A DNA stretch of 35,772 nucleotides from contig CACXNL010000009.1 of assembly GCA_902769055.1 (NCBI GenBank), forward strand, positions 1 to 35,772, given 5' to 3'. Positions 14,097 through 15,477 of the stretch are shown here, piece after piece. How positions within the stretch are numbered: position 1 is the first letter of the stretch; the number at the start of each line of letters is the position of its first letter. Under the pieces are notes generated by a model, which saw nothing but the letters and a program-made list of their open reading frames with translations, ran no database searches and had not been told where the DNA came from. A program made the position numbers and the translations under genes. Source of the DNA: an uncultured Pseudomonadota bacterium. GTDB taxonomy: Bacteria; Pseudomonadota; Alphaproteobacteria; RUG11792.

Positions 14097-14513
14097 TCAT
14101 CCGTCCTCTTTGCTTAATAGTCTGCGTAAGTCTGGATGATCTATAAACTTTATTCCGAACATCTCAAAAATCTCCCGTTCATACCAATTTGCATTGGTAA
14201 AAAGAGGCGTAGCGCTTGGCACAGAGGCACCATTTGGTACATCTGTAGTTACAAAGATATTCTTGTCTAGTTTGTAACTGTGCAACTGATAATACACCCC
14301 ATACGCATTGCTTTGCTCGGTGTAATCCACGGCAAAGCAGTCTGTCAATACTTCAAACAAAGTTGCTTTGTTCGTGGCTAATGTAGCCATACACTTCAAT
14401 GTGTTTTTCAGCTCTATTTTAAAATACAGGTTACCCTCAGAAAGCCACGCTTCCAACAGATCTGAGCCAAGAAGTGATTTTATCAATTTTTGGCAAGACA
14501 CATCAGCGCTCAT
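14097..14513 (-). CDS. nuoC: NADH dehydrogenase subunit C (30 kDa), C-terminally truncated orphan
   Basis: 138 residues matching the complex I 30-kDa subunit: FEVLTDCFAVDYTEQ, a beta region, then ANWYEREIFEMFGIKFIDHPDLRRLL, close to the family consensus NWFERE..DMFGI.F..HPDLRRIL. Full alphaproteobacterial NuoC runs about 50-60 residues further (GFxGHPLRKDFPL...); here it stops six residues after RRLL. Nothing of the missing tail is seen in other frames, because the converging PhzF-like gene begins 28 bases on. No other nuo gene is in the window. The start overlaps the sspB stop (ATGA). It may be a relic, or the other complex I genes may lie elsewhere and tolerate the short form. Confidence 0.8.
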   Translation of the reverse strand: MSADVSCQKLIKSLLGSDLLEAWLSEGNLYFKIELKNTLKCMATLATNKATLFEVLTDCFAVDYTEQSNAYGVYYQLHSYKLDKNIFVTTDVPNGASVPSATPLFTNANWYEREIFEMFGIKFIDHPDLRRLLSKEDG

Positions 14514-14959
14514 TTGCCCTTTCTGAAGATATCCAAGGAAATTATCTTGCTAGATCTACCACTGCTTGTCTCATCGACCTTGGCAGTTTTGGGATCTATG
14601 TCGGAAAAATCAGGAGTAAACTCCAAATTGAAGTCTTCCGACGGATCGCTCACCGAAATCATCGATGCGAATGGAATGTATATTGTTTCATCAGAATGCT
14701 CAAAAGCTAGACTTACTGAAAAGCCAAAATCGTCAACAATTAAATCCCAAAACTCGTACTGTAATACAATCGTCATCTCGTCATCATATTCGTCCCGCAA
14801 CAACTTTGATATTTTCACATTGGGATGATTCAATGCGAACGTTATGTATATGTGTTGTTTCTTATACAACCCCTCCGTCGCAATCTGTTCAATAATTTCC
14901 TTCACGACCGAAATCGAGGCTTTCCTTAATAGAAAACCGTAATCTAATTTTTTACTCAC
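14510..14959 (-). CDS. sspB: SspB, ClpXP adaptor for ssrA-tagged proteins (alpha type)
   Basis: 149 residues from a GTG at 14959, which has GGAGAG seven bases upstream; the earlier GTG at 14974 has none. The fold core is visible: LRKASISVVKEIIEQIATEGL, IYITFALNHPNVKISKLLRDEYDDEMTIVLQ, YEFWDLIVDDFGFSVSLAF, IPFASMISVSDPSEDFNLEF. The end, SSKIISLDIFRKGK, is the ClpX-binding tail typical of alphaproteobacterial SspB (VVSLDAFRKK). SspB dimers hold the ssrA tag and deliver it to ClpXP for breakdown. It lies directly downstream of the tmRNA gene on the same strand, so adaptor and tag source are neighbours. Confidence 0.9.
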   Translation of the reverse strand: MSKKLDYGFLLRKASISVVKEIIEQIATEGLYKKQHIYITFALNHPNVKISKLLRDEYDDEMTIVLQYEFWDLIVDDFGFSVSLAFEHSDETIYIPFASMISVSDPSEDFNLEFTPDFSDIDPKTAKVDETSSGRSSKIISLDIFRKGK

Positions 14960-14977
14960 TAATCCACTCTCCACAAC

Positions 14978-15019
14978 AAAGCGGGGGAATTCTGTTGCTC
15001 GGATCCCCCTATCCGCTTT
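14978..15019. terminator. Hairpin between ssrA and sspB
   Basis: AAAGCGG at 14978-14984 pairs with CCGCTTT at 15013-15019, and the space within contains a further GGGGGA/TCCCCC pairing option. On the minus strand it lies about 45 bases after the tmRNA 3' end and ends 19 bases before the sspB GTG. No clear T-run follows on the minus strand, so it may attenuate rather than end transcription, or cap the sspB leader. Confidence 0.45.
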
Positions 15020-15061
15020 TAGTCTACCGCTTCGTTAGAAACAGTATGTCCAGAATTTACT

Positions 15062-15322
15062 CAAAATCCCATCACGGGCAGATTAAGCAACTTTCCTTTC
15101 AGCAGCTTGCTCGTTAAGATTGGCTGCGACTTTTGCCTTTTCATTTCTATTGGCATTTATTAAAATTAGCCCGATAACGACGGTACAATGCCGAGTGAAA
15201 AATAAGCCTTTATCGCTCCATGTCGAACCTATTTCGCCCCCATACAAATGGCGGAGGCGCAGGGTACTGCCCCCTGGTCCACAAAGCCTATTTCGCAAAC
15301 CGTTTATCACCATAGTCGCAAA
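15062..15322 (-). ncRNA. ssrA: Circularly permuted two-piece tmRNA (alphaproteobacterial type)
   Basis: The acceptor piece comes first on the minus strand and ends in CGCCTCC-G-CCA at 15249. Its T-arm is CAGGG-GGCAGTA-CCCTG. After a seven-base spacer the coding piece starts with GGGGGCGAAATAGGTTCGAC at 15241. GGGGGCG pairs with CGCCTCC through seven base pairs, including the G3-U70 pair that marks alanine RNAs. Helix P2 is long: 15200-15213 pairs with 15281-15293 with one bulged base. The tag frame runs 15154-15083: resume codon GCC, 23 codons, TAA. It begins ANRNEKAKVA, repeats as ANLNEQAAERKVA, and ends at the stop. A CCCG-TGA-TGGG hairpin (15068-15078) follows. Piece ends at 5' and 3' are estimates. 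tmRNA rescues stalled ribosomes and tags products for ClpXP. Confidence 0.93.
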
Positions 15323-15328
15323 ACGACA

Positions 15329-15355
15329 TTTATATACTACCACAAAAAAAGTCGA
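15329..15355 (-). promoter_or_regulatory. Likely promoter of the tmRNA gene
   Basis: On the minus strand TCGACT (15355-15350) and TATAAA (15334-15329) are 15 bases apart, just upstream of the acceptor piece. The -10 is good and the -35 fair; the spacing is short. The transcript would begin near 15322. Confidence 0.5.
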
Positions 15356-15477
15356 TACATCTAGAGAATCCGGATAATTTGATGTAAATGGGTAAAAATA
15401 TGTGTAGTAGTTGCAATGAACGAGCCAAGAAATAAGCCAATAACAGATTATCCAGAAAATAAACAAAAATGTTGCCA

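Follow-up and report, generated by a model that had tools for sequence, protein, structure and literature searches.

Accounts of the ssrA tag usually describe a short degron that varies rather little. The tmRNA gene considered here, carried on a 35,772-nucleotide stretch of DNA (the window) from an uncultured alphaproteobacterium, had been predicted from its letters alone to encode a tag of 23 residues built from two degenerate copies of one unit. The questions here are whether the tag is really doubled, whether the doubling belongs to this genome only, and what role such a tag might have in the handover of tagged proteins to ClpXP.

Identification of the tmRNA gene and its tag

The ssrA gene in the window was found by ARAGORN and by the Rfam alpha_tmRNA model (RF01849), which matched over its full length (model positions 1-355, extent 14980-15367) with 167.1 bits against a curated cut-off of 50 bits. 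A genome search showed it to be single copy in the 0.8 Mb genome. In the ARAGORN call the acceptor half lies ahead of the mRNA half, as expected for this family, and reading of the sequence gives an acceptor stem in which GGGGGCG (15241-15235) pairs with CGCCTCC (15259-15253), with the G3.U70 pair and an encoded CCA. The features are collected in Table 1, where the outer limit of the acceptor piece is the ARAGORN boundary. The gap between the two pieces is merely seven bases long. The discriminator base, usually A in tmRNA, is G here and in G005, and A in G001, G003, G004 and G008.

Table 1. Features of the ssrA-sspB region of the window
Feature	Position	Strand	Basis
sspB, adaptor gene, predicted to deliver ssrA-tagged proteins to ClpXP	14510..14974	-	Pfam SspB; PDB relatives
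ssrA, permuted (two-piece) alphaproteobacterial tmRNA	14992..15341	-	ARAGORN; Rfam alpha_tmRNA
Tag reading frame, 23 codons + TAA, ANRNEKAKVAANLNEQAAERKVA	15083..15154	-	ARAGORN (188-259 of gene); sequence
Tag unit 1, ANRNEKAKVA	15125..15154	-	Sequence; same unit in relatives
Tag unit 2, ANLNEQAAERKVA	15086..15124	-	Sequence; internal [VA]AN.N in 26/55 long tags
Intervening sequence TTTGTAT, 7 bases, putatively excised to give two pieces	15242..15248	-	Sequence; relatives' alignment
Acceptor piece, tRNA-like 3' half with encoded CCA at 15251-15249	15249..15341	-	Sequence; Rfam alignment

ARAGORN and the Rfam alignment agree with the original prediction on the position of the tag and on its resume codon, GCC at 15154. 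This codon follows AAUAAAU and is aligned to GCA, the consensus resume codon of the ANDN tag; the context UAAAU-GCC is common to relatives, and the frame is open to the stop. The Rfam alignment and the common context together rule out a chance or mis-called resume codon. The window gene thus shares with the Caulobacter-type two-piece tmRNA (RF01849) the permuted arrangement, the encoded CCA, the G3.U70 pair, the resume-codon context, the A-N-x-N start of the tag and its terminal Ala. Its tag differs from the ANDN...(L/V)AA tag of that type in being 23 rather than 9-15 residues long, in having two A-N-x-N units, and in ending in KVA rather than LAA or VAA. Nor does it fit the typical alphaproteobacterial tag (9-15 residues, one AN.N, an (L/V/I/M)AA end) as represented by 118 short tags in our comparison.

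As had been noticed, AN.NE..A is present in each half of the tag, and each half ends in KVA. When the self-similarity of the tag was compared with codon shuffles, p was 0.067 for the protein and 0.36 for the DNA, and a doubling within the window tag alone is not statistically convincing.

Long tags with repeated modules throughout the order

The comparison with the ssrA genes of relatives proposed in the original prediction was made with 29 genomes of the same order, comprising rumen and termite-gut Holosporales-like MAGs from 18 genera. Carriers in the order apparently include RUG14374 (G003), RUG14192 (G004), Gsp477_bin1 (G006), RGIG4847 (G008), Rs511_bin80 (G012), Iy174_bin24 (G021), RUG11792 (G025) and Cd354_bin23 (G032); in each case the tmRNA positions and scores agree with those of the named MAG, reached by way of its prfA locus. 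RGIG4847 was recovered from the rumen of roe deer, and RUG is a code for rumen MAGs; among the remaining carriers, several bear the label Holosporales and isolate codes hinting at termite guts. These names, together with genome sizes, lead us to infer that the carriers are host-associated.

All 29 tags are 23-37 residues long, and the unit pattern of the window tag recurs among them, for example in ANRNRRQKVA-ANLNRKAVAKKAA and in ANLNRKSNGRRRVS-NLNRKDAQKKVA. An N-x-N motif beyond the first four residues was present in 61% of the 18 genera (genus-averaged), compared with 16% +/- 7% when the remainder of each tag was shuffled; none of 5000 shuffles gave as high a value. Strictly counted, about one third of the tags have no second N-x-N; for most tags taken singly, repetition does not reach significance in codon shuffles, and tag sequences differ widely between genera. 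Two sister tags carry tandem duplications for which the DNA p value lies at the 1/401 floor. In G007 the DNA repeat is CAACGTAACAGGAAAGTTGCG followed by CAACGTAACAGAAAGGTTGCT, translated as QRNRKVA-QRNRKVA; in G014 the tag reads QLNRARVAKAV-QLNRADAVAKAA.

Because the relatives carry repeated modules beyond chance, we accept the doubled pattern in the window tag as real; it would have arisen by duplication in the window's own lineage. The likeness of the two halves, unconvincing within the single tag, thus gains its support from the order as a whole. The tag is indeed atypical beside the short tags, but it is no peculiarity of this genome, being found order-wide and also in other lineages. The proposal that a whole short tag was duplicated past an old ...VA end is plausible in view of the duplications in sister tags and of clean ANDN repeats in two other families (see below). 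On the best reading of these sequences, long, multi-part and usually arginine-rich tags would be an old inherited trait of the whole order.

Basic charge and the C-terminal end of the tags

The original prediction overlooked the most striking feature of the clade, which is that its tags are strongly basic, a property mostly lost in the window species. Net charge is positive in 29 of 29 order tags (+2 to +12, median +9), against -3 to +1 in short tags, and the window tag is the least basic of the order at +2, compared with +8 in G003. Charge per residue is 0.32 in the tag frame of the order tags, compared with 0.06 and 0.12 in the other two frames, and arginine is encoded by both codon blocks (AGA/AGG 106, CGN 65). 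The frame-specific basicity, together with the use of both blocks, indicates that the amino acid was selected and not the base composition, and rules out a by-product of purine-rich DNA.

In a DNA alignment of seven sequences, AGA-AAA-GGC-AAA-AAA (as in G008) stands opposite GAA-AAG-GCA-AAA in the window. This suggests that in the window species Arg may have been replaced by Glu through indels, changing R-K-G-K-K to E-K-A-K. The indels sum to a whole codon, so that the frame was preserved. As the window species has lost most of the basic charge, any matching of charge cannot be strict.

The third-last residue is K in 20 and R in 2 of the 29 order tags, whereas it is L or V in 93 of 118 short tags; an Ala-Ala end is present in 20 of 29. 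The weakened ClpX end that had been suggested for the window tag accordingly finds no support as a novelty of this genome, since K or R at this position is the rule in the order (22/29) and ClpX retains its tag-contact loops GYVG and GGRKHP.

The SspB adaptor and other partners

The gene directly downstream of ssrA, on the same strand, encodes an SspB domain (PF04386, 94.7 bits against a cut-off of 27) with sequence relatives 2qas and 2qaz in the PDB. These are SspB-alpha of Caulobacter; the window protein belongs to the same Pfam family and has a similar C-terminal tail, KIISLDIFRKGK, which looks like a ClpX-binding tail. The sspB gene adjoins ssrA in the order. The neighbourhood is not in itself a special feature, being shared by much of the class.

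The SspB core of the order is more acidic than that of Caulobacter SspB-alpha and has acidic columns of its own. Its median charge is -11, versus -5 in short-tag genomes, and tag charge and SspB charge are negatively correlated (Spearman -0.51, n=116), phylogeny being ignored in both comparisons. SspB charges of -12 to -14 are likewise seen in four basic-tag genomes of other families. The order-specific acidic positions include LQYEFW in place of LQHQFW, with E in all order sequences, and DPSEDF.LEF in place of DPSV.FGLQF. We assign neither these columns to the peptide groove nor the order-specific acidic residue E68 to a known groove position of the E. coli protein, the alignment around E68 being ambiguous. 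SspB is thus apparently matched to basic tags by its acidity.

ClpX and SmpB were both found in the window genome; in a survey of the order, SmpB was found in 30 of 35 genomes and ClpX above the cut-off in 32 of 35. An alteration of the ClpX reading head to suit a basic end was not seen, the RKH loop and GYVG being unchanged, and ClpX had no charge shift like that of SspB (-9 versus -11). In G182 (L274) and G126 (L275), where ssrA is present, the search for ClpX gave only weaker AAA+ matches; another protease may act on tagged proteins there, unless the genomes are simply incomplete.

Long tags in other alphaproteobacterial families

The 144 tags collected from other alphaproteobacterial families fall into two length classes with none between. 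The short class (118 of 144) has 9-15 residues, a median charge of -1 and no internal N-x-N. The long class (26 of 144) has 20-44 residues, and 21 of its 26 members contain an internal N-x-N where 8.0 would be expected by shuffling. The sample was deliberately enriched for low-scoring tmRNAs, and the proportion of long tags therefore does not reflect a natural frequency. For about a third of these tags ARAGORN failed, and they were read by eye or with a resume-codon rule of our own.

Two of these tags, ANDNVAFVA-ANDNTVVEVAVAA in G143 and ANDNAQFVA-ANDNFVVEGDIAIAA in G169, have the appearance of a normal tag duplicated in textbook fashion. Among 55 long tags, an internal [VA]-A-N-x-N, a pattern picked after the data were seen, occurs in 26, compared with 1.4 expected and a maximum of 8 in 3000 shuffles. 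The internal copy is mostly preceded by V-A or A-A, so that the A-A-N-x-N start is recreated. Long tags are found mostly in small genomes. A ClpX tree calls for several changes between short and long tags; as it represents one gene and has long branches, a single origin of long tags may still hold.

A proposed mechanism and its alternatives

We consider it somewhat more probable than an even chance that the order has an ordinary trans-translation system (permuted tmRNA, SmpB, SspB and ClpX) with an inherited multi-module, basic degron. A short ancestral tag of the form A-N-x-N-...-(L/V)-A-A would have been lengthened by tandem duplication to 23-37 residues, mostly with at least two A-N-x-N modules, and would in this order have become enriched in Arg and Lys. 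Stalled proteins would receive the tag from tmRNA, and the acidic SspB encoded next door would dock on one A-N-x-N module with the assistance of charge, while the final residues, basic and then (A/V)-A, would enter ClpX. With the SspB module far from the ClpX end, adaptor and unfoldase could bind simultaneously, and a second module would raise the chance of capture. As sspB is the next gene, repeated docking of SspB is possible. Inferred features of this model are docking at several sites, complementary charge where SspB meets the tag, and the advantage of spacing.

Published work makes a basic ClpX end and extra spacing reasonable: ClpX is known to use the MuA C-terminus RRKKAI as a degron, and insertion of four residues between the SspB and ClpX sites makes degradation of the tag SspB-dependent (PMC8138137). 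The order tags share with the engineered DAS+4 ssrA tag the extra spacing between the two sites, and with the MuA degron a run of basic residues just ahead of the C-terminus (PMC8138137). They differ from these in being natural and order-wide and in having more than one A-N-x-N module.

The strongest competing explanation is that selection has relaxed in small genomes, with slippage. The tag of host-associated lineages would then grow by slippage and drift, the repeats would be leftovers without a function of their own, and nothing but the initial A-N-x-N and the terminal Ala would matter. Small genomes do hold most of the long tags, tags vary widely between genera, and the exchange of Arg for Glu in the window species, with its charge largely lost, speaks for some relaxation. 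Drift would not, however, be expected to leave all 29 order tags net positive, with a basicity seen in the tag frame only and drawn from two Arg codon blocks, to preserve the frame through the window indels, or to make SspB charge track tag charge, and we regard this explanation as unlikely, if still to be taken seriously. The view that no duplication occurred, and that a second A-N-x-N appeared by chance or by convergent selection in an extended Asn- and Arg-rich tag, meets the order-wide excess of internal motifs, the clear DNA duplications in sister tags and the clean ANDN..VA-ANDN repeats in two other families. Even though neither the window tag nor most single tags are individually significant, and the DNA halves of the window tag are not alike beyond chance, we think it very improbable.

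A long basic tag might instead serve another protease or receptor (Lon, ClpAP, FtsH, or nucleic acid binding), with SspB-ClpXP secondary. Such tags are far from the known ClpX/SspB degron, and their third-last residue is Lys and not Leu or Val. Yet sspB stays beside ssrA and ClpX is kept throughout, the partner with changed charge is SspB, and the Ala-Ala end persists in 20 of 29 tags; this makes the proposal improbable in our judgement. Returning to the multi-module, basic degron, we suggest tentatively, at a little under even chances, that in this order of gut-associated Holosporales-like alphaproteobacteria it co-evolved with an acidified SspB to allow multiple docking, and that similar tags re-arose in other small-genome families. 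If so, it would be a natural multivalent, charge-steered form of the ssrA-SspB-ClpXP handover.

Relation to known tags and to tag calling

In the papers that could be searched, we found no description of tag duplication, of multi-module or Arg-rich ssrA tags, or of a matching SspB. The 2025 tmRNA database paper gives ten residues as the commonest tag length, and its passages on tags that were searched do not mention multi-unit tags. The individual sequences may well already be among the 97,179 of the tmRNA database (PMC11915505).

The relatives show an ssrA tag lengthening by duplication, changing the sign of its charge and tracking its adaptor. Co-evolution of degron and adaptor can thereby be tested directly on purified SspB, ClpXP and peptides, and the new tag-adaptor pairs may be orthogonal to known ones. 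The results also serve as a warning that tag callers miss or truncate such long tags. ARAGORN did so at L029, L019, L214, L036, L039, L050 and L051; in G014 it called AVAKAA where the actual tag has 35 residues, and it called 15 residues for 40 in G039 and 14 for 39 in G185. Tag databases based on ARAGORN may therefore under-report long tags.

Two further loci are of note. The permuted tmRNA gene of L206 (G143) has a long intervening sequence that looks partly tRNA-like (GTCGCCCGTAGCTTAAGC...). The longest tag read, of 44 residues, is that of L285 in the 0.8 Mb genome G359, GENAKNGLNAFIHAANTGAAVFSAVTLLAANGAMPVRRRRRMAA, which starts with Gly and has a run of five Arg followed by MAA.
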